Shown here one piece after another: positions 3,931 through 14,291 of a DNA stretch of 35,496 nucleotides. A program made the translations under genes and the position numbers. Below the pieces are notes generated by a model. The model did not search any database. It was not told the DNA's origin and worked only from the letters and a program-made list of their open reading frames with translations. Positions within the stretch are counted from its first letter, which is position 1; each line of letters starts with the position of its first letter. Source of the stretch: Treponemataceae bacterium. GTDB taxonomy: Bacteria > Spirochaetota > Spirochaetia > Treponematales > Treponemataceae. The stretch spans positions 1-35,496 of the forward strand of contig JAKSTR010000022.1 of the NCBI GenBank assembly GCA_024402495.1. Direction: 5' to 3'.

Positions 3931-4003
3931 AAAACTCTGATTAATTTCTGTAATGTGCAGAATTATTCAATCTCAAAAAAAAGTTTCATTAGGAGTAGAG
4001 AAA

Positions 4004-4822
4004 ATGAAAGTTAGGGTATGTAAAAAAGAGAACGTTCTTTTTGCACTGAAAGTGATTTTTACGCCGGTTGTATTGTTCGCAATAATTATTGGTTTTGCTT
4101 TTTGTGTAATGGATACAAATCCGGAAGAAGTGTCGCCGCTTGCGGTTCTTCCTGTGTTTATTTTTTATTTCCTGCTGATTGCTGTCTGGGTTTATTTTAG
4201 AAAAATATTTCTTGTCGGTTATTTAAAGGGCAATGGTGTAGAAATAAATCAGGAACAGTTTCCAGAATTTTACGTGTTTTATCAGAAAATGGCAGAAGAA
4301 CTGAATATGAAAAAACTTCCGCCGCTTTTTGTCTTGCAGGAAGGTGGCTCGCTGAATGCTTTTGCAATAAGATTTTCCTGCAAAAACTACATAGCCATTT
4401 TTTCTGATATTTTTGAATTGTACGACACGGAACCGGAAGTTGTTAAGTTTGTTCTTGCCCATGAACTTGGTCATGTAAAAAGAAACCACTTGCAGAAACG
4501 TTTTTGGACTGGTCTTTCTTCGCTCATTCCGTTTTTGGGTGCCGCATATTCGCGTGCCTGCGAATACACCTGTGACAACATTGGCTGCGATCTTTCGGAA
4601 AATGGCGCAGAAAAAGGCCTTTTGGTACTTGCAGCCGGTAAAAGTCTTTATGCCAAAATGAATGCGGCAAAATATATTGAAAATGCAAAAAAATCCAGAA
4701 GCGCGTCCGTTGTGTTTTCAGAATTATGTTCAAGCCATCCGTATTTGCCAAACAGAATTAAAAACATTCAAAACGCACCTAAAGTCGAAACTGCCGTAGC
4801 AGGTGAAGCACAGGAAAACTAA
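4004..4822 (+). CDS. M48 family membrane zinc metallopeptidase
   Basis: The 272-residue protein has two N-terminal membrane segments (about residues 10-35 and 45-65) and then a gluzincin catalytic domain. The motif HELGH starts at H153 (zinc ligands H153 and H157, catalytic E154). The third ligand is probably E187 in the segment CEYTCDNIGCDL, which corresponds to the family's E-x3-D helix. The architecture is that of HtpX/Ste24-like peptidases, which cleave damaged or specific membrane proteins. The cytoplasmic or periplasmic orientation of the active site cannot be decided here. ATG 4004 is preferred over ATG 3953 because AGGAG lies about 8 bases upstream and the membrane helix then starts sensibly. 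The gene stands alone between two nearly identical hairpins. Confidence 0.86.
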   Translation: MKVRVCKKENVLFALKVIFTPVVLFAIIIGFAFCVMDTNPEEVSPLAVLPVFIFYFLLIAVWVYFRKIFLVGYLKGNGVEINQEQFPEFYVFYQKMAEELNMKKLPPLFVLQEGGSLNAFAIRFSCKNYIAIFSDIFELYDTEPEVVKFVLAHELGHVKRNHLQKRFWTGLSSLIPFLGAAYSRACEYTCDNIGCDLSENGAEKGLLVLAAGKSLYAKMNAAKYIENAKKSRSASVVFSELCSSHPYLPNRIKNIQNAPKVETAVAGEAQEN

Positions 4823-4831
4823 CCACAAACG

Positions 4832-4853
4832 CCCTGCACCACCACGTGCAGGG
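4832..4853. terminator. Hairpin after M48 gene, copy of the one at 3804
   Basis: CCCTGCAC (4832-4839) pairs with GTGCAGGG (4846-4853). The T run is only three bases on the plus strand, and the hairpin sits one base from the end of the converging gene at 4855, so it may serve both directions. Confidence 0.65.
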
Positions 4854-4854
4854 T

Positions 4855-5361
4855 TTACGTACACAATTTGATTTCAACGTGTTTGTGGGTTGTGCGCACA
4901 AACCGAAGGAATTTTTTCATGTCGCTGTCGTTTGGCGTTTTGTCCAAAAATACTTCAAAAGGTTTTCGGTCATAAAAATCAAATCGCCACGAATATTCGG
5001 TATTGGTGTTTAGCCTGCCTCTGTAACGTGAAAAAAAATAAATTTCGCCGTAAACCTGCGTAATCGATTTTAAGTTTGAAAAATTATTCTTCAAAGTTCT
5101 GATTCTGCTTTTAAGAATCAGCTTTTCGCCGTCGTATTCAATAGAATTTCTTCTGTTGATTATGATTTTTGCGGCGACAAAGATTATTACAAAGTTAACG
5201 GCTGCTGCAAACTGAAACAAAGGGTTTGTTATGCCGAATTTTTCATCATTCGGTTCTGCTGCAAGCAAAACAAAGGCGCCGTTTATAATCAGCAGGTAAA
5301 ATGCAAAAATGGCATACACGGCATAATTCCATTTGCTTTTAGGCGCACAAATTTTTTTCAT
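4855..5361 (-). CDS. Small membrane protein of unknown function
   Basis: The protein has 168 residues. Two hydrophobic segments lie near the N-terminus (about 13-34 and 49-69) with a short loop between. The soluble part after residue 75 is rich in beta-type sequence, with the pattern EYDGEKLILKSRIRT followed by aromatic strands. This resembles the bacterial PH-like domains found behind two membrane helices in small bacterial proteins, but I cannot assign it to a named family. It converges on the M48 gene and shares the hairpin at 4832. No strong ribosome binding site is visible, only an A-rich stretch. No function can be proposed. Confidence 0.65.
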   Translation of the reverse strand: MKKICAPKSKWNYAVYAIFAFYLLIINGAFVLLAAEPNDEKFGITNPLFQFAAAVNFVIIFVAAKIIINRRNSIEYDGEKLILKSRIRTLKNNFSNLKSITQVYGEIYFFSRYRGRLNTNTEYSWRFDFYDRKPFEVFLDKTPNDSDMKKFLRFVRTTHKHVEIKLCT

Positions 5362-5386
5362 ATTTCAATAATACAAAAAAACCGGC

Positions 5387-5571
5387 AAAAAAGCAGCGCA
5401 GTTTGCAGGTTTCGTACACCAAGTAATAGTTAGAGACAAAGCAAACAGCAAAAGCAAGTCATGCTGAACTTGTTAGCCTTCGGCGGCTGAACACTGTATT
5501 TGTCATGCTGAACTTGGTTCAGCATCCGATTTGTTATTAAAACCAGATTCCGAAACAAGTTCGGAATGACA
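5387..5571. repeat. 185-bp dispersed repeat, copy 1
   Basis: This copy is identical to 9179-9363 except for one base in the segment CCGAAACAAGTTCGG. It contains nested dyads: TGCTGAAC-TTG-GTTCAGCA and ATTCCGA-N6-TCGGAAT. It lies just upstream of the gene ending at 4855 and downstream of the DUF4177-like gene. Reading frames inside it give SELVSES-type peptides, which mark such repeats and not genes. Confidence 0.93.
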
Positions 5572-5674
5572 GTTTGTCCGGTTAGGAATGACAAAACTTA
5601 AAAACCCGGCATTTGATCTGCAAAATATTTTCTTCCTTCTATTAAAAAGCTTTTTTGGGAAAAATTTTGCCATT

Positions 5675-5702
5675 AAAAAAGCCAAGGTTGAGGTCTTGGC
5701 TT
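5675..5702 (-). terminator. Terminator of the island's minus-strand operon
   Basis: On the minus strand AAGCCAAG (5702-5695), an 8-base loop and CTTGGCTT (5686-5679) are followed by a T run (5680-5675). It lies just after the DUF4177-like gene and ends the three-gene minus-strand run. Confidence 0.85.
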
Positions 5703-5708
5703 AATGTG

Positions 5709-5975
5709 TCATATTATTTTTTCAAATATCATAGTAGCTTGTATTTTGTCGCCTCCAAAGAATCCTTTGGAATCAGAAGATGTGGTTGAAATTGTGTGTA
5801 GTCTATACCCTTTGGCAGCTTGTTCGTTAATAGTTCTTTGAAGGTTTGTAAGGCTTGATACACCAGAACCGGTGCCTAAAAATTTTTCTGTTAACACAAC
5901 CTGAAGAACTACGTACATATCGTTTTTTCTGCCTTGTGCTGCAATAACACCTGCATCAAATCCAAATCCTGCCAT
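5709..5975 (-). CDS. DUF4177-like small protein
   Basis: The 88-residue protein resembles the DUF4177 pattern: a hydrophobic strand around YVVLQVVLTEKFLG, a helix containing NEQAAKGYRL (members usually have LN..a..GW.l here) and the C-terminal strand ATMIFEK. The family is small, probably cytoplasmic, and has no settled function. A clear ribosome binding site AGGAG precedes the start. It is the last gene of a minus-strand set with the ankyrin lipoprotein and the DUF975-like gene, 53 bases below the former. The AT-rich composition matches those neighbours. Confidence 0.68.
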   Translation of the reverse strand: MAGFGFDAGVIAAQGRKNDMYVVLQVVLTEKFLGTGSGVSSLTNLQRTINEQAAKGYRLHTISTTSSDSKGFFGGDKIQATMIFEKII

Positions 5976-6028
5976 TAAAAAACTCCTGTTTGTGGTTTAC
6001 TTTTTTACGGATATGCAAAAATAATTTA

Positions 6029-7837
6029 CTACCAATAATATCCATGCGGTGCAGCATCATACAAGATTTTGTATGTTGAATAATAATTATTTTTTATAGT
6101 TGAATTACAATATTCATATGGGTATGAACCATCGTATTTTTCTGCTTTGTTTGCGCCGTTATTTAGTAATACTTTTATTACACTGTCATTTTGGTTTTTA
6201 TAACAAGCTGCAAATAAAGGAGATACTCCGTCTTCATCTTTTGCGTTTACTTTTGCACCATTTCTTATAAGTAGTTCTACAATATCTTTTGAGGGATATG
6301 ATTTGTAGCATTGTGCTAATAAAGGAGTTCGGCTTTTTTGAGATGAACAGATTGTATTAACATCAGCATTTTTACTTATAAGAATTTTTACTGCTTCGTA
6401 ATTATTATTTTCACAGGCAGCATATAAAAGAGTTCTTCCTTCTTTATCTTTTTGAAAAACATCAATAAATTTACCATTCAAAAATAATCGTAGCAGGTCT
6501 TTGTCTTTACAATTTGTTAAAATCCGTGTTTGTTCAGTTATTTCCATTTCACTAACGTGCGGTAGTAAATATTCTGCGGCTTTTTTTGATTCGAATCGAA
6601 TTGCATTAAAAAACTGGTCGTTAAAGTCGTTTTCTGTTTTTGAATTTAACAGTTCCAGCTTTTTTACATTGTCAAATGCAATTAAAATTGTTTTGCCCAA
6701 ACTATAGTCTGAATCAAAAGATTTTATAGATGTAATTAAGTCTTCAAAATTTTCATCAGAAGAAAAGCATGCTGTCCAAAGTGCATTTGTTTTTGTATCT
6801 TCACTTGCATATTTTAAAAGAACTTTTAAATGGTGATTCTTCCCCTCTTCTCTTAAAGGGTTCAACTGCTTTAGTTGCTGCAAATTAGAAAAATCAGAAA
6901 AGAAGTCTTCTGCTTTTTTGTTCCATTTAAATGATGGAGTATTAAGTAGAGCCCAATCTAATGCATGCCAAGTATAATTATCAGTTGCAGCAACATCTGC
7001 ACCAAGTTTACACAAACGTTCTGTTATGTCTGCATTTCTGTTGCAGCGTACAGCCCAAATTAGCGGCGAATAGCCGTCTTTATGTCTTTTATCGTTAATG
7101 TCTGCACCATTATTTTTAAGAACATCAATTACATTCGGATTTGAGTTATACATTGCAGCCCACATAATCGGGGTTGTTCCAAATTGGTTCTGTTCATCAA
7201 TATTACCGCCTTGCTTGCACAAAAAATCAATAATTGATGTATTAGGATTTGTCATGCAGGAAATGCTTAAAAGGCTTGTTGGGTATTGAATTGTAATGGT
7301 GTCGTTAATATTTGCACCTGCGTTTTTTAATTCAGAAAGAACAGTTACATCATTTGCAAATAACGCAGCGTAAACAAAGACAGGTCTTTCTGACCTGTCT
7401 TTAAGTTGAACGTTTGCACCTTTTTTTAACAGGTAACTTACAGCTTTTGTGTTTGATTTTACGTCAGGAACACTATCTAATGCAGCATACAATTCTTCAT
7501 CGTTATCATTAATAAGTGCAATCCTGAATTTAGAAAGACTTTCTGCATACGCAGAAGGGTTTCCGCCTAAAACTGCATAAAACAAAGGCGAATAACCTTC
7601 CGAGTCAAGTTCGTTTACGGATTGTCCCTTTTTTATGAATTTTTCAATTTCAGAAACTTTTCCGTATGCACATGCTTTATAAAAGTCATTAGAAAATTCA
7701 TCTGCTTTTATTGCTGTATTATAGTTTTTTGTTGCAGCCTGACTATTGGGCATTTTTAATGCGTTCTGCATGTTCTTTGTACAAGAAACAGCAAAAAAAC
7801 TTAATGCTAATAATGATAGAATGTATGCCTTTTTCAT
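6029..7837 (-). CDS. Ankyrin-repeat lipoprotein
   Basis: The 602-residue protein starts with MKKAYILSLLALSFFAVSC, a signal peptide ending in a plausible lipobox with Cys19, so it should be lipid-anchored outside the inner membrane. Most of the rest is ankyrin repeats. Clear units begin near residues 80 (YSPLFYAV), 217 (FGTTPIMWAA), 252 (DGYSPLIWAV), 463 (EGRTLLYAAC), about 500 and about 535 (DGVSPLFAAC); helix pairs end in motifs such as NNGADIND and RNGAKVNA. The region around 310-450 is more divergent. Ankyrin stacks bind other proteins, so an envelope-associated binding or inhibitor role is an inference. Only 7 bases separate it from the upstream DUF975-like gene; its ribosome binding site overlaps the end of that gene. 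It is strongly AT-rich. Confidence 0.85.
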   Translation of the reverse strand: MKKAYILSLLALSFFAVSCTKNMQNALKMPNSQAATKNYNTAIKADEFSNDFYKACAYGKVSEIEKFIKKGQSVNELDSEGYSPLFYAVLGGNPSAYAESLSKFRIALINDNDEELYAALDSVPDVKSNTKAVSYLLKKGANVQLKDRSERPVFVYAALFANDVTVLSELKNAGANINDTITIQYPTSLLSISCMTNPNTSIIDFLCKQGGNIDEQNQFGTTPIMWAAMYNSNPNVIDVLKNNGADINDKRHKDGYSPLIWAVRCNRNADITERLCKLGADVAATDNYTWHALDWALLNTPSFKWNKKAEDFFSDFSNLQQLKQLNPLREEGKNHHLKVLLKYASEDTKTNALWTACFSSDENFEDLITSIKSFDSDYSLGKTILIAFDNVKKLELLNSKTENDFNDQFFNAIRFESKKAAEYLLPHVSEMEITEQTRILTNCKDKDLLRLFLNGKFIDVFQKDKEGRTLLYAACENNNYEAVKILISKNADVNTICSSQKSRTPLLAQCYKSYPSKDIVELLIRNGAKVNAKDEDGVSPLFAACYKNQNDSVIKVLLNNGANKAEKYDGSYPYEYCNSTIKNNYYSTYKILYDAAPHGYYW

Positions 7838-7844
7838 TTTTATG

Positions 7845-8684
7845 TTATTCCTGTTCTGCTTCTGCTGTTGATTCTACTGTTGCTGTTTTCTGTTCTTGTT
7901 CTTTATTTTTTTCATTCAGGGTTGAAGTTCTTTCTTCGTTTTCTTCGTCTGTTTCTGCATCTACAGTTTTGCTAATTTCTTTAAAATACATTGCAGATAC
8001 AACTTCGTGATATCCAACAGCAAAAATAAGGCCTAATCCGCAGGTAACAATTCCTATAATGAACCAGCCAAGGAAGCTTAAATCAAGGTTAAATAAAATA
8101 CCTCTGTTTCCGATTGTGTATTTTTTAGAAATTTCAATAGCTTCTCCGGCTGTAATATCTTCTTTTGTAGCTAAAACATATCTTGAATAACTGAATTTAT
8201 AATGAGCCATAACGCCAGGAACAATGAGGAGTAATGCCCATAAAAGAGTAAATAAATAGATTTCTACACCACAGATAGCATATTCAATAAAATATCTTGC
8301 TTTAGAAATTGGCTTAAAAATTGCATTTATTTTAATTTTTTCATTATTTACAATCATTAAAGGTATAGTTGCTAAACATACATAATATGGAAAAATCAGA
8401 GCTGCAAAAATTATAGATCTAAAAAACATGTAAATGCCCCAGCAAATCCACTCAACATCCAGTGTAATGAATGTTAAAGGCAATGTAATTTGTGTCCAGT
8501 TTTGGGTGTAAATAAAATTTGTTAAAACTTTTTCTAAAGGATTGGGAATAAAGAAAACAAAACTAGCAAGAGCAATTGTTATAAGCAGAAAACATAAATT
8601 ACATAAACACAGTATCCATGTCTTTCCGTCTAGCATTTTTTTTGCTTCTTTTTTGAATTTTATTCTGTCAATTGTTACATCCAT
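7845..8684 (-). CDS. DUF975-like integral membrane protein
   Basis: The 279-residue protein has about five hydrophobic segments (near residues 22-46, 85-120, 130-155 and 200-230). The second half, with PGVMAHYKFSYSRYVLA, then AIEISKKYTIGNRG, then LDLSFLGWFIIGIVTCGLG, matches the DUF975 pattern, whose members have several membrane spans and unknown function. A charged tail rich in Glu and Lys fills the last 40 residues and probably faces the cytoplasm. The ribosome binding site AAGGAG is strong. It is the first gene of the minus-strand set with the ankyrin lipoprotein and is transcribed away from the XRE gene across a 171-base spacer. Confidence 0.78.
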   Translation of the reverse strand: MDVTIDRIKFKKEAKKMLDGKTWILCLCNLCFLLITIALASFVFFIPNPLEKVLTNFIYTQNWTQITLPLTFITLDVEWICWGIYMFFRSIIFAALIFPYYVCLATIPLMIVNNEKIKINAIFKPISKARYFIEYAICGVEIYLFTLLWALLLIVPGVMAHYKFSYSRYVLATKEDITAGEAIEISKKYTIGNRGILFNLDLSFLGWFIIGIVTCGLGLIFAVGYHEVVSAMYFKEISKTVDAETDEENEERTSTLNEKNKEQEQKTATVESTAEAEQE

Positions 8685-8735
8685 TTAGGACTCCTTGGTA
8701 ATATAGTTTTTAATAGCTTGAAATTCGGTATTTAT

Positions 8736-8759
8736 TTACGCCTTATGTACTTGGCGTAA
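8736..8759. promoter_or_regulatory. Candidate operator dyad between DUF975-like and XRE genes
   Basis: TTACGCC (8736-8742) and GGCGTAA (8753-8759) form a perfect 7-bp inverted repeat with a 10-base spacer in the divergent intergenic region. A TATACT box (8836-8841) lies just before the XRE start. The arrangement fits repression of the membrane-protein operon, the regulator or both by the XRE protein; no binding is shown. Confidence 0.45.
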
Positions 8760-8855
8760 TACGAAAATCGCTATTAGTTTGTTAATTCACATTATCAGAT
8801 AATTGTTGTTAGGTCAAACCGACAGTAGTGTTTTATATACTATTGGTGATTTTAT

Positions 8856-9179
8856 ATGACAGAAAAAGAAATCAGAGATGTTTTTTCTCAAAATCTGAAA
8901 CTTCTTAGAGAAAAAAAAGGGCTTTCTCAGATGGCTTTAGCTTCTAAAGCCGATTTAGCTACAAACTTTATTAACGATATTGAAAATGGCAAGAAATGGA
9001 TTTCTCCGGCTACGCTTTCTAAATTAAGTGAAGCACTTGAAGAAATGCCGTATTCTTTCTTTGTGCCGGTACAGATTCCGGCTGTAAGTTCAAATGAAAT
9101 GATTAATCAGTTTTGTACAGAGATTTCCAATGAGCTGTTGTATACAATTAAGCAAATTTCCGAAAAATATGTTCAATAA
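8856..9179 (+). CDS. XRE-family HTH transcriptional regulator
   Basis: The 107-residue protein carries a Cro/C1-type helix-turn-helix at about residues 10-70. The motif runs LKLLREKKGLSQMALASKAD, then FINDIENGKKWISPATLSKLSEAL, the usual five-helix pattern. The C-terminal 35 residues may mediate dimerisation. The ribosome binding site is GGTGA. It diverges from the island's minus-strand genes and is their likely regulator; the candidate operator is at 8736. Its stop codon coincides with the left end of repeat copy 2. Confidence 0.88.
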   Translation: MTEKEIRDVFSQNLKLLREKKGLSQMALASKADLATNFINDIENGKKWISPATLSKLSEALEEMPYSFFVPVQIPAVSSNEMINQFCTEISNELLYTIKQISEKYVQ

Positions 9180-9363
9180 AAAAAGCAGCGCAGTTTGCAG
9201 GTTTCGTACACCAAGTAATAGTTAGAGACAAAGCAAACAGCAAAAGCAAGTCATGCTGAACTTGTTAGCCTTCGGCGGCTGAACACTGTATTTGTCATGC
9301 TGAACTTGGTTCAGCATCCGATTTGTTATTAAAACCAGATTCCGAAACGAGTTCGGAATGACA
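9179..9363. repeat. 185-bp dispersed repeat, copy 2
   Basis: It matches copy 1 (5387-5571) at 184 of 185 positions and has the same orientation. Together the copies bracket the AT-rich island. Its right flank does not match copy 1 but matches the right flank of copy 3, including a piece of a GH35 gene. Confidence 0.93.
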
Positions 9364-9381
9364 TTTTGGGATTTTTGTATT

Positions 9382-9414
9382 TTACCAGCTGTCGTTTTCG
9401 TCAAGCGTTATAAA
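9382..9414 (-). pseudogene. 3' terminal scrap of a GH35 beta-galactosidase gene
   Basis: Positions 9372-9414 match 11863-11905, the end of the intact GH35 gene and its downstream bases, at 42 of 43 positions. The minus strand reads FITLDENDSW and a stop; the intact gene ends FITLDESDSW. Nothing else of the gene remains. It records a former second copy or a recombination event beside repeat copy 2. Confidence 0.8.
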
Positions 9415-9437
9415 GCAGCCTGGGGTGCTTTTTTTTT
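9414..9437 (+). terminator. Rho-independent terminator before the chemoreceptor
   Basis: AGCA-G-CC pairs with GGTGCT (9424-9429) across a 3-base loop with one bulged base and is followed by nine T. It would stop transcripts coming from the XRE gene through repeat copy 2. Confidence 0.6.
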
Positions 9438-9449
9438 ACTTAGTAAAGA

Positions 9450-9478
9450 TTGGCAAAAAATTCCAGTTGATATAAAAT
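9450..9478 (+). promoter_or_regulatory. Sigma-70-type promoter for leader ORF and chemoreceptor
   Basis: TTGGCA (9450-9455) and TAAAAT (9473-9478) are 17 bp apart, each 5 of 6 matches to consensus. The predicted start near 9485 precedes the leader ORF at 9511. I do not see a well-spaced sigma-28 promoter here. Confidence 0.5.
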
Positions 9479-9510
9479 CACTGCATCAAAAGGAATAAAT
9501 AAAAGGAAAC

Positions 9511-9603
9511 ATGGTTTTTAAGGATGTTCTGAAACCTGGCAACGGAACATTCGTTCTAAACTTCTCAAATACTGGTTTGAGAAAGCGGAAGGTTATTTTA
9601 TGA
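9511..9603 (+). CDS. Candidate 30-residue leader ORF coupled to chemoreceptor
   Basis: ATG 9511 follows AAAAGGAAAC, a good ribosome binding site. The frame runs 30 codons and stops at TGA 9601-9603, which overlaps the chemoreceptor ATG (9600) as ATGA. The peptide begins [10 protein letters not shown] and ends LRKRKVIL, so its C-terminus is basic. I recognise no family. The overlap and ribosome binding site suggest real translation and coupling to the receptor gene, but such a short frame could arise by chance. Confidence 0.45.
9562..9583 (+). promoter_or_regulatory. Hairpin just before the chemoreceptor ribosome binding site
   Basis: TTCTCAAA (9562-9569) and TTTGAGAA (9576-9583) form a perfect 8-bp stem with a 6-base loop. 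The ribosome binding site GGAAGG follows within 10 bases. It lies inside the leader ORF, whose translation would melt it. Confidence 0.5.
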
Positions 9604-11657
9604 AATCACTAAAAACCAAGCTGGTTCTGATAATTTCAATTCTTATGGCTGTTGCTGTTGGCATTATTGGAATGCTTGCGACAGAAACAGTAATTATGCA
9701 TCTGGATACCCAGATAGAAGCTACCCTTTTGGAAACGGCGGAAAACGCTGCCGAACAGGTAAATGCTGCCATTCAAAGTGAATTTGAAGTGCTGCACACC
9801 CTTTCACTTCTTCCGAACATCATTGATGAAAACGTACCGTTGCAGGAAAAATGTACTTTTCTTGCAACTTTAAGGCGCGATGACCGCAACATTGCCTTTT
9901 ACGACGTAGAAGGCCGTTTTATAAACGCGGCAGGCAAGCCCGTTCAGGCAAAAGTAGACGAAAGCGAATACTTAAAGCCAACCCTCAGGCAGGGCATAGA
10001 TTATTCTACCGACCCGCAGTTTTCTAAAATAGGAAACAGGGTTTTGATGTTTTTAAGCGTGCCGGTAAAATCGAAAGACGGAAAAATTATCGGCTGTGCA
10101 GTATCTGCAAAAGACGGTTCAATTGTAACAAGCATTGCCGACAGCATTTCTGTTGCAGAAAACTTTCATCCGGTTATTATCAGCAACAAGACCGGTGAAA
10201 TCCTTTCTAATGTTGAAGAAGAAATTAAAAGTAACGAAAAATCTTTTGCGGAATATACAAAACTTATGCAGGATATTGCAAAAGACCAGAAAATGAAAAC
10301 TTATACCGATTCCATTACTGGTCAGAAAATGATTTCTGTTTCTGCATCTGTACCCGGCAAGGACTGGAAAGTAGTCTGCTCAATTCCGTACAGTTACTAT
10401 TACAGTTCGGTAAACGCACTGCGTCTTATCATTCTTCTTATTGGTTTTGCTGCCGACCTGCTGAATACTTTTATAATTTATTTCATTATAAGCAAATCGC
10501 TTAAGCCGCTTGTAACGGTTAAAAAATCATTTGAAAAAATTTCAAGCGGCGACGCAGACCTTACCCAGCGTATTGAACTTAAGTCCGAAGACGAAATTGG
10601 TCAGATTATCAGGGAATTCAATAAGTTTACCGAAAAACTTCAGGTTATTATTGCCGGAATTAAGAATTCCAAAAAAACGCTCGAAGCCGCCGGTACGCAG
10701 CTGCAAAATTCTACCATGAATACGTCTTCGGCAATTACCCAGATTTCTGCAAACATCAGTTCTACCCACGAACAGATAAATACTTCTTCAAATGCCGTTG
10801 TAGAAACTGCGTCTACGCTGAACGAAATTTCTGAAAAAATCAATTCTTTTGACAGGATTATTGAAAATCAGGCTGGCAGCGTAAATTCGGCTTCGGCTGC
10901 AACTGAAGAAATGATAAGCAACATTGCATCCGTAAAGCATTCAATGGATATTCTTGCTTCTTCGTTCCGCGATTTGTACGATTTGCTTTCCGGCGGTATT
11001 GAAAGCCAGAAGTTCATCAACGAAAAGATACAGAAAATTGAAACCCAGTCTAAGGCGCTGGAAGAAGCGAACAAGGTTATTAACGGCATTGCAAGCCAGA
11101 CCAATCTTCTTGCAATGAATGCCGCAATTGAAGCGGCACACGCTGGAGAAGCCGGTAAGGGTTTTTCTGTTGTTGCCGACGAAATCAGAAAATTAAGCGA
11201 AAATTCAACTTCCCAGTCTAAGTACATAAAAGACAATTTGAGCGATATTTCCAAAACTATTGGAGAAACGGTTGCCGTAAGTAACGATGCCAACAGCAAG
11301 TTCAGCAGTATTGGCGAAAAAATTAAGGATACTAATGATTTTGTTGCCCAGATGAAAGAAGCGCTTGAAGAACAGAACAAAGGTTCGCAGCAGGTTAGTC
11401 AGGCTCTTCAGTCCATGCTCAATGACAGTTTGCAGGTTGAAACTTCTTCCGTTGAAATTGCAAAAAACAACGAACGTATCATGCAGCAGATTCAGAATTT
11501 GCAGGTTATTACCAAAGAAATTACCCAAAACATGAAAGAAATGGATATTGGTACAAAACGCATTAACGACAGCGGCATGGAACTTGAGACCGTTTCTAAA
11601 CAGATGGCAAAATCCATTGACGACATCGGTTCGCAGATTGATAAATTCAAGGTTTAG
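9600..11657 (+). CDS. Methyl-accepting chemotaxis protein, Cache-type
   Basis: The 685-residue receptor has a membrane segment at about residues 6-28, a periplasmic sensor of about 245 residues with the look of a double Cache domain, a second membrane segment at about 274-297, a HAMP domain at about 298-350 and a long coiled-coil signalling domain. The conserved hairpin tip, with [20 protein letters not shown], lies at about residues 500-520 and binds CheA and CheW. Such receptors control flagellar rotation in response to small ligands; the ligand is unknown. The C-terminus ends in DKFKV without a CheR-binding pentapeptide. It is translated from an ATGA overlap with a leader ORF. The unit lies between repeat copies 2 and 3, next to a GH35 gene, which hints at sugar or plant-polymer cues. 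Confidence 0.92.
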
Positions 11658-11685
11658 CCAGCATTTCGCGTAACAAAAAGGGGCG

Positions 11686-11709
11686 TAGTTTTTGTGCAAG
11701 CAAAAACTA
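11686..11709 (+). terminator. Hairpin after the first chemoreceptor gene
   Basis: TAGTTTTTG (11686-11694) and CAAAAACTA (11701-11709) form a perfect 9-bp stem with a 6-base loop. The following bases GGGGCTTTTG are not a clean T run, so termination is uncertain. The segment replaces the left end of the repeat in copy 3. Confidence 0.45.
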
Positions 11710-11719
11710 GGGGCTTTTG

Positions 11720-11856
11720 CGTACACCAAGTAATAGTTAGAGGCAAAGCAAACAGAAAAAGCAAGTCATGCTGAACTTGTTAGCCTTCGGCGGCTGCGCA
11801 CAGCATCCGATTTGTTATCAAAGCACGGATTCCGAAACGAGTTCGGAATGACAGTT
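11720..11856. repeat. Dispersed repeat, copy 3 (shorter)
   Basis: It matches copies 1 and 2 from CGTACACCAAGTAATAG onward with a few changes but lacks about 30 internal bases around the second TGCTGAAC dyad. It ends 16 bases before the stop codon of the GH35 gene. The orientation is the same as copies 1 and 2. Confidence 0.88.
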
Positions 11857-11872
11857 CTGTTTTTTTTGTATT

Positions 11873-13606
11873 TTACCAGCTGTCGCTTTCGTCAAGCGTT
11901 ATAAAATTGCCGGCTGTGCCTTCGCTTTCAAACAGGATTATGGTATTTTTGCCCGGTTTTAAAAGCGGCGCTGGCAGGTAAAGTTTTTTCTGCGGTCCAA
12001 TCTGCCAGTAGCGCCCAAGATTAAAGCCGTTTATAAAAGCGCAGCCTTTTTCAAAGCCTTCAAAGTTTAAAAAAGTATCGCAGGGTTTTTCTACGTTAAA
12101 AACGAATTCGTAAAAGGCGGGCAGCCCTTTTGCAAAACCAGCGTCAAAATCAATTTTGGCAATTTGTTCCGGGGTAAAAGGCAGGTTGAAAATGCTGAGA
12201 CCCTGATGTTTTTTGCCGTTGATTTTTATGCTTTCTATGCCTTTGCGCTGGCCTGCGATTTTTTTGCCAAAGTTAATTCTGCCCAGATTTTCGCACAAAA
12301 GGTCAATTTGCGTATTTTTTTCACCTTTGCCAATTGAAAATTTGTTTTTAAGGCTTTTGCCAAAAGCAGTTTTTACCGGGTTCTGGTCTGCAAAAATATT
12401 TACGCGGTCAAAAGCGTTCTGCATTTGCAGTGTTTTTGCGTTTTGCGCGTTCAGGCGGTACAAAATATAGCCGTAATTCTGCCCGTTTTCTTCCATACAA
12501 CCGGCATTTGCCTGCTGCTTCGGTACGGCAATTTTTTCCAGCGTGCTGAAAAGGTCAGTTTTCCGGCTTACTTCAATTCTGCCGAATTTTTTATATTCTA
12601 TATCTGTGCTTAAGTTTTCTTCGCAGCCGCCTTTGTAGGAACGGATTATTTTCTGGAATTCCCGGTATTTGGGCGTAATTTTTCCGTCCTGAGTCAGAAT
12701 TCCGTCGTAATCGTAGCTGGTGGTGTCGCCGTACAGGGTCGTAACGTTCCGCCCGTTCATAAAGCCAAAGTTCGTGCCGCCTTCAAACATATAAAAGTTT
12801 ACGTTGCCGGTACGCATAATTTCATCAAGGTCTTTTTTGTTCTGCTCAAGGTTCGAAGTGTGGTGACTGTCGTTCCATGCGTCAAACCAGCCGCACCAGA
12901 ATTCCATTACCATAAGCGGGCGGTTTTTGCCTATTTTCTTTTGCATTGCGCCAAACTGAAGCTTCACTTTGCTGCCAAAATTGCCGGTCGGCAGGGCGTT
13001 GGGCAAACTGCCGCGTTTTATAGCGCTGCCCCACGGACCGTCGCTGGTTACAAACGGCACGGTTATGCCGTTCTGGCGCATCAAATCGGCGTAAAACTGC
13101 AAATATTTTTTGTCTTTGCCAAAATAGCCGTATTCGTTTTCAATTTGAACCATGATGATTGTGCCGTTTCGGTTTATCTGGAAAGGCGCGATTTTGGGCA
13201 GAAGAATTTTGTACCAGTTCCGCACCGCCTGCAAAAACGGTTCGTACATGCAGCGTACTTTCATGTTTTTGTCTGCAAGCAGCCATGCCGGCAAGCCGCC
13301 CCACTCCCATTCGGCGCAAATATAGGGCGAAGGGCGAATTATTACAAAAAGCCCCAGATCTTTTGCAGTTTGCAGGAATTTTTCCAGATTGTGCATGCCT
13401 TCAAAATTGTATTCGCCTTTGTTTTCTTCGTGAAAATTCCACGGAACGTAGGTTTCTACCGTGTTGCAGCCAAGATTTTTCAGTTTTTCCATCCGGTCGC
13501 GCCAGTATTCGGGCACGGTTCTAAAATAGTGAAAGGCGCCGGAAATAATCTGAACCGGTTCGCCGCTGATGTAAAACTTGTCTTTGATTTCAAAAGTTTG
13601 TGCCAT
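11873..13606 (-). CDS. GH35 family beta-galactosidase
   Basis: The 577-residue enzyme belongs to glycoside hydrolase family 35, retaining exo-acting beta-galactosidases with a TIM barrel. The opening GAFHYFRTVPEYWRDR, the segment ETYVPWNFHE and RPSPYICAEWEWGGLPAW are family hallmarks. The acid/base should be E158 in QIENEYG and the nucleophile E235 in VMEFWCGW. The C-terminal half has the beta-sandwich pattern, with FINGFNLGRYWQIGPQ near the end. No signal peptide is present, so it probably cleaves imported galactosides in the cytoplasm. I start it at ATG 13606 because the longer frame to 13645 adds 13 residues outside the domain; the ribosome binding site is a modest GGGGGC. A duplicate of its last 10 codons survives at 9382-9414. 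Confidence 0.92.
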   Translation of the reverse strand: MAQTFEIKDKFYISGEPVQIISGAFHYFRTVPEYWRDRMEKLKNLGCNTVETYVPWNFHEENKGEYNFEGMHNLEKFLQTAKDLGLFVIIRPSPYICAEWEWGGLPAWLLADKNMKVRCMYEPFLQAVRNWYKILLPKIAPFQINRNGTIIMVQIENEYGYFGKDKKYLQFYADLMRQNGITVPFVTSDGPWGSAIKRGSLPNALPTGNFGSKVKLQFGAMQKKIGKNRPLMVMEFWCGWFDAWNDSHHTSNLEQNKKDLDEIMRTGNVNFYMFEGGTNFGFMNGRNVTTLYGDTTSYDYDGILTQDGKITPKYREFQKIIRSYKGGCEENLSTDIEYKKFGRIEVSRKTDLFSTLEKIAVPKQQANAGCMEENGQNYGYILYRLNAQNAKTLQMQNAFDRVNIFADQNPVKTAFGKSLKNKFSIGKGEKNTQIDLLCENLGRINFGKKIAGQRKGIESIKINGKKHQGLSIFNLPFTPEQIAKIDFDAGFAKGLPAFYEFVFNVEKPCDTFLNFEGFEKGCAFINGFNLGRYWQIGPQKKLYLPAPLLKPGKNTIILFESEGTAGNFITLDESDSW

Positions 13607-13865
13607 ATTTGCCCCCGCAAAAATACCTGCAAATTTTACATTCAATCCGGTAAAAAGTCGATATTTTCTGCTTTTACCCCGAATGCCGCGCTATCAGTAT
13701 TTTTTGTGCCAGCGGTTTGGGCGCCGGGCAAAAAAAATGGTATATTTTTAGTATCAAAGTGCCGTAAATACCTGAGTTTTAAATATCAGCCTGAAAATTG
13801 CAGGATGATTTTATAAATTTTTAACTTGGCATTCGGGCAAAGTAATAAAATTGGGGGCAAAAAAA

Positions 13866-14291
13866 ATGAACGAAATGCAGCAGAAAGAAGTAAACGATGC
13901 GCTGCGCGTAATTGACGAAATCTTACCGATGCTTGGCGAAGCTGAACGCAAATTCAGCAGTGCGCGTAACTGGGGATTTTTTGATATTCTGGGTGGCGGC
14001 TTTATTACCGACCTGATAAAGCACAGCAAGCTGGACGGCGCGGCGCGGCTGATGAACCAGATAAACTATAAGCTTGGCGAATTGCAGCGCGAACTGAAAG
14101 ACGTTCAGTTTGGAACGGATTATTCCATGAACACAATGACTTTTGCAACTTTTGCCGACTTTGTGTTTGACGGCGCAATTGCAGATATTTACATGCAGTC
14201 TAAAATCATGTCCAGCCTCAGCCAGGTGCGCGACCTTCAGAACCGCCTGATGAATTTAAGAAGTTATTTGATTAACCTTATGCGCCGCTAG
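13866..14291 (+). CDS. Conserved small helical protein of unknown function
   Basis: The protein has 141 residues, is almost entirely alpha-helical and has no membrane segment or signal peptide. It carries the conserved-looking core SARNWGFFDILGGGFITDLI (about residues 33-52), followed by KHSKLDGAARLMNQINYKLGE and a final helix rich in Leu and Arg. Similar small proteins with an ILGGG core occur in Firmicutes and spirochaetes to my memory, without an assigned function. I prefer ATG 13866, preceded by GGGGGC, over TTG 13851. It diverges from the GH35 gene and is followed by two hairpins. Confidence 0.72.
   Translation: MNEMQQKEVNDALRVIDEILPMLGEAERKFSSARNWGFFDILGGGFITDLIKHSKLDGAARLMNQINYKLGELQRELKDVQFGTDYSMNTMTFATFADFVFDGAIADIYMQSKIMSSLSQVRDLQNRLMNLRSYLINLMRR

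Follow-up and report, generated by a model that had tools for sequence, protein, structure and literature searches.

The window analysed here, 35,496 bp of a Treponemataceae genome (contig JAKSTR010000022.1), contains a short run of AT-rich genes enclosed by two nearly identical direct repeats, which raises the question of whether the repeats are the ends of a unit that moves. The source is a MAG of 2.97 Mb in 202 contigs. Sequence comparison confirms the pair reported in a preliminary description of this DNA: the left copy, R1 (5387–5571), and the right copy, R2 (9179–9363), both on the plus strand with a spacing of 3792 bp, match at 184 of 185 bases with a single mismatch, and the ungapped match extends to 5576/9368. 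R2 begins at the stop codon of a gene for an XRE-family regulator, also as described. A third, diverged copy, R3 (11675–11853, plus strand), was missed in that first reading; it adjoins an intact GH35 gene (11873–13645, minus strand).

The enclosed segment deviates in composition from its surroundings, as expected of a horizontally acquired accessory island. Positions 5572–9178 have a GC content of 32.3%, against 44.0% for the rest of the window, and none of 248 other 3607-bp segments of the genome is as low (mean 42.6%, sd 2.5, minimum 36.4%). GC at third codon positions is 21–28% in the four island genes and 34–53% in most neighbours. The preliminary description had called the island AT-rich and proposed comparing its GC content and codon usage with the flanks; the island deviates in both, the codon test being a small one with its background taken from the window itself (mean log codon probability −1.01 to −1.16 for island genes versus −0.83 to −0.98 for neighbours). 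Immediately left of R1, an open frame at 4855–5361 encodes a 168-residue protein with no Pfam match and no homologue in seven congeneric genomes.

The four genes are those named previously, as judged by Pfam. Three lie on the minus strand: an 88-residue DUF4177-like protein (5709–5975), scoring 24.7 bits and so just under the cut-off of 25; a 602-residue ankyrin-repeat lipoprotein with a signal peptide and the lipobox ...AVSC (6029–7837; Ank, 3e-57); and a multi-spanning membrane protein of the DUF975 family (7845–8684; PF06161, 1e-20, above the cut-off). The fourth encodes the XRE-family regulator (8856–9179, plus strand; HTH_3, 7e-12) and is divergent from the DUF975 gene. A candidate intrinsic terminator at 5679–5702 on the minus strand (consensus match, 8-bp stem, T run) lies 3′ of the DUF4177-like gene, and together with the gene spacing suggests that the minus-strand genes form one operon. 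The divergent promoter region contains a candidate operator, the inverted repeat TTACGCC-N10-GGCGTAA (8736–8759), whose 7-bp arms could arise by chance. From this weak inverted repeat and the gene arrangement, the XRE protein probably represses both the operon and its own gene. The predicted structure of the DUF975 protein had a mean pLDDT of 48 and was not used, and the model of the lipoprotein supports stacked helices only. That the two proteins form a membrane-anchored surface complex is a guess prompted by the lipobox, the repeat domains and the conserved partner. A role as a defence system was rejected, the PADLOC matches being to generic ankyrin and HTH proteins.

R1 and R2 are local members of a dispersed, hairpin-forming repeat family and not unique island ends. 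A search of the whole genome with the repeat yielded at least 80 matches, a lower bound with 40 of 197 candidates scored. Most copies share a common right end (...GGAATGACA, at 5571, 9363 and 11853 in the window); a left end near 9177 is common to several others. The element is built of two modules. The right module (about 5458–5571 in the intergenic R1) has inverted ends and is also present in congeners, whereas the left module is not palindromic. R2 folds into long hairpins, much more stable than those of shuffled sequence (z −3.9). Since the R1/R2 identity ends at the ends of the element, and copies elsewhere are likewise defined, the stretch of identity coincides with the dispersed element. 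Nevertheless, no other pair compared is as similar as R1 and R2; a tandem pair on contig 112 comes next (97.5%), and the remaining top-scoring pairs are at 72–88%. Genome-wide, 15 of 67 copies lie within long open frames versus 17% at random, a figure that is uninformative on gene avoidance. The short length, high copy number, defined inverted ends, strong hairpins and tandem clusters resemble REP-, BIME- and MITE-type repeats; the family differs from these in its non-palindromic left module, and neither a target-site duplication nor a mobilising transposase was identified. A structured RNA was rejected for want of an Rfam match. The repeat was also rejected as an attC site: its core sites do not fit, and a pattern scan of the window found no attC-like site.

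A second contig bears on the near-identity of R1 and R2. L118 (JAKSUT010000149.1, 3484 bp, from horse faeces) matches window positions 5319–8846: it begins in the left flank, of which it has 68 bp, runs through R1 and stops within the island at 8846, before the XRE gene; it thus supports the left junction alone. It differs from the window by 10 substitutions outside R1 and by four substitutions and a 44-bp indel inside it; the clustering of the substitutions in R1 has a P of about 0.002. The L118 copy of R1 is a 141-bp version without 5458–5501, the 44-bp deletion lying between 15-bp direct repeats. At every one of these differences, the four substitutions and the indel alike, window R1 is the same as window R2. 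The left end of the L118 copy and its flank also complete a 9-bp inverted repeat (ACCGGCAAA/TTTGCCGGT) that is broken in the window at 5407, which suggests that the L118 version is the older. The simplest reading is that window R1 took on the sequence of R2, either through gene conversion or during assembly, and the near-identity of the pair probably reflects this rather than recent insertion.

The L118 copy is 97.2, 96.5 and 92.6% identical to window R1, R2 and R3, respectively, closer than to most other copies (one partial match, on contig L056, is 93.8% identical over 129 bases). This makes it probable that the three copies here are related locally. L118 was binned with a different species, one with 65–70% DNA identity in rpoB and about 30% GC, and apart from L118 nothing in that bin matches the window's first 16 kb. 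L118 is therefore probably mis-binned strain DNA, the alternative being a second, recent transfer.

The region to the right of the island bears traces of further rearrangement. Beside R2, a 60-bp remnant of a GH35 3′ end (9372–9431, minus strand; it reads GCFITLDENDSW, stop) is 87% identical to 11863–11922 and duplicates the end of the intact GH35 gene at 11873, next to R3. GH35 tails are thus found beside both R2 and R3, and the MCP gene at 9600–11657 likewise lies between repeat copies with such tails. Repeated recombination at the repeats would explain both the tails and the MCP segment.

The closest relatives of the ankyrin–DUF975 pair lie outside the genus. The ankyrin lipoprotein was found in four of 274 family genomes, each from a different genus. 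The ankyrin–DUF975 pair, with the lipoprotein following DUF975, is present in G158 (contig L120) and G014 (contig L121), where the proteins are 68% (ankyrin) and 62–65% (DUF975) identical in amino acids to those of the window. The sampled contigs of these two genomes mostly have 30–34% GC (one has 37.6%), so in composition the module matches these AT-rich genomes and not that of the window. The DUF975 protein of the congener G006 is itself closer to those of G158 and G014 (69–70%) than to that of the window (57%). This distribution, patchy against the species grouping, is consistent with an acquired accessory island, and the reading of the module as foreign accessory DNA is supported by its GC content, by the patchiness and by the location of its closest ankyrin–DUF975 relatives in AT-rich genomes of other genera. 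Carriage of DUF975 or the lipoprotein by viruses was rejected, viral contigs having no DUF975 relative and one distant ankyrin match; so was carriage by plasmids, where distant DUF975 relatives occur in other phyla only. The window contains no tRNA gene, and a tRNA-targeted island was rejected on this basis.

In G158 and G014 the pair forms part of a larger unit. DUF975, the ankyrin lipoprotein and a HigBA-like toxin–antitoxin pair lie on one segment (L120:208–3606 and L121:122–3583) that is 95.5% identical between the two genera and ends at the core of a 64–66-bp attC-like site. Reported attC sites of T. denticola measure 63–68 bp, and the reported maximum is three genes per cassette (PMC3607928). 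In the match of its terminal site to these lengths the segment looks like an integron cassette, although with four genes it is unusually large and exceeds that maximum. The island in the window differs in having no attC-like site, and in carrying the XRE and DUF4177-like genes in place of the toxin–antitoxin pair. No match to the window repeat was found on L120 or L121. The contig breaks upstream of DUF975 in L118, L120 and L121 were considered as a shared recombination site, and this was rejected, since the window shows no alignment to L120 or L121 upstream of the gene.

The preliminary description held that the module has its own regulator. This is partly supported. In its favour, the divergent XRE–DUF975 arrangement recurs in two congeners, G005 and G006, and is seen on contigs L119 and L122; against it, the regulators are just 19–29% identical. 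The DUF975 proteins of this subgroup are set apart within PF06161 by the conserved N-terminus IDRxxFKKEAKKxLDGK and are trailed by dissimilar lipoproteins in different species; of those behind DUF975 in G005 and G006, one has EYDSKGN (RHS-like) repeats and one is FliF-like. On L119 (3379–4246) the lipoprotein behind DUF975 has YscJ/FliF domains, and its C-terminal tail (EWFEYTFWKDGTKKSCVVYETE) is encoded in a different frame, such as a frameshift or fusion would produce, and resembles the tail of the G005 lipoprotein. Two consecutive EYDSKGN-repeat lipoproteins are encoded on L122 (6921–9160), and the motif SC.K...AL.MP that follows their lipobox is also present in the ankyrin lipoprotein.

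The DUF4177-like gene has a different distribution. It occurs in five of 274 family genomes and was never found beside DUF975 in the contexts read. Across phyla, the protein is 62–66% identical, over 86–93% of its length, to proteins of streptococcal temperate and satellite phages (phrog_22683, 6e-32), whose genes belong to the lysogeny region and, in the two phages inspected, adjoin the integrase gene or lie one gene away. The island differs from that region in lacking an integrase or any other recognised phage gene, and none of the nine proteins encoded in 3953–14291 has a Pfam match to an integrase or recombinase. A DUF4177 protein of Clostridium tyrobutyricum has been reported to be bacteriocin-like (PMC11322243). 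By its distribution and its relationships, then, the DUF4177-like gene travels separately from the ankyrin–DUF975 module. The suggestion that the island was inserted as one unit is accordingly not demonstrated, this gene being absent from the other modules and alone elsewhere.

How the island came to lie between R1 and R2 can be read in several ways. It could be a discrete mobile unit ending at the repeats, a one-repeat circle that enters through one crossover with a repeat already in the chromosome and is released when the same step runs backwards. The placement of the closest repeat pair compared in the genome exactly at both ends, in the same orientation, favours such a unit, as does the MCP segment, which has R2 on one side and R3 on the other and a GH35 3′ end next to each, as repeated events would leave. 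However, none of the four genes matches a recombinase, relaxase or replication family in Pfam. The repeat has many copies in the genome and its right module occurs in congeners, but no match to it was found on the cassette-like contigs L120 and L121; the near-identity of R1 and R2 is probably secondary, and modules elsewhere lack DUF4177. We regard this reading as unlikely, and R1 and R2 are not enough on their own to delimit a mobile element. Somewhat less probable still is a contig misjoined through the repeats, with the island belonging to a different part of the genome or coming from a second organism in the same sample. A fragmented MAG, repeats at both joins, an island GC content unlike the rest and the binning of L118 into an unrelated 30% GC genome would all fit such an artefact. 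Yet L118 independently joins the left flank, R1 and the island, and the divergent XRE–DUF975 pairs of the two congeners indicate that the XRE gene belongs to the module, so that the stretch from XRE through R2 is the only join for which this assembly is the sole source.

We consider it improbable, and the least likely of these readings, that the island entered by another route and that the hairpin repeat was later inserted on both sides. Insertion of this kind would agree with the many copies, with identity that stops at the element ends and with a right module that has inverted ends and folds strongly. Against it, no target-site duplication was recognised by eye at R1 or R2, and the genome's single Y1/RAYT-type transposase gene, the only type searched for, has no such repeat adjoining; mobilisation by that transposase was rejected for this reason.

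In the reading we favour, and think reasonably probable, the XRE, DUF975 and ankyrin lipoprotein genes, together with a phage-type DUF4177 gene, make up an accessory module that was acquired and lies at a chromosomal spot where several copies of a dispersed hairpin repeat have collected; the island is an ordinary accessory one, and what is unusual is its repeat setting. An AT-rich relative would have been the donor, with entry by homologous recombination at a repeat or by insertion beside one, and the local repeat copies would be duplicates later homogenised by gene conversion. Assemblers err at 185-bp repeats, and the homogenisation could be an assembly effect. Once in place, DUF975 and the lipoprotein would be expressed from one minus-strand operon, with XRE as its repressor at the divergent promoter. 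Crossing over of R1 with R2 would excise the module and leave a single repeat. Loss by this route is plausible; gain, loss and a circular form are unseen. No island-free genome with a single repeat was found among the genomes compared (one per species); within the genus the flanking genes do not keep a common order.

This locus is a warning that neither the age nor the limits of an insertion can simply be read from nearly identical repeats on its flanks in a draft genome: L118 shows one of the two copies to have been rewritten compared with the DNA around it. The locus also brings to light an undescribed DUF975/lipoprotein pair that moves between spirochaete genera, partly on integron-like cassettes. 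Tentatively, and with low confidence, the pair may be an exchangeable two-protein surface system in which DUF975 is conserved and the lipoprotein is swapped (ankyrin, EYDSKGN or FliF-like), travelling by integron cassettes in some Treponemataceae and by dispersed-repeat recombination here.
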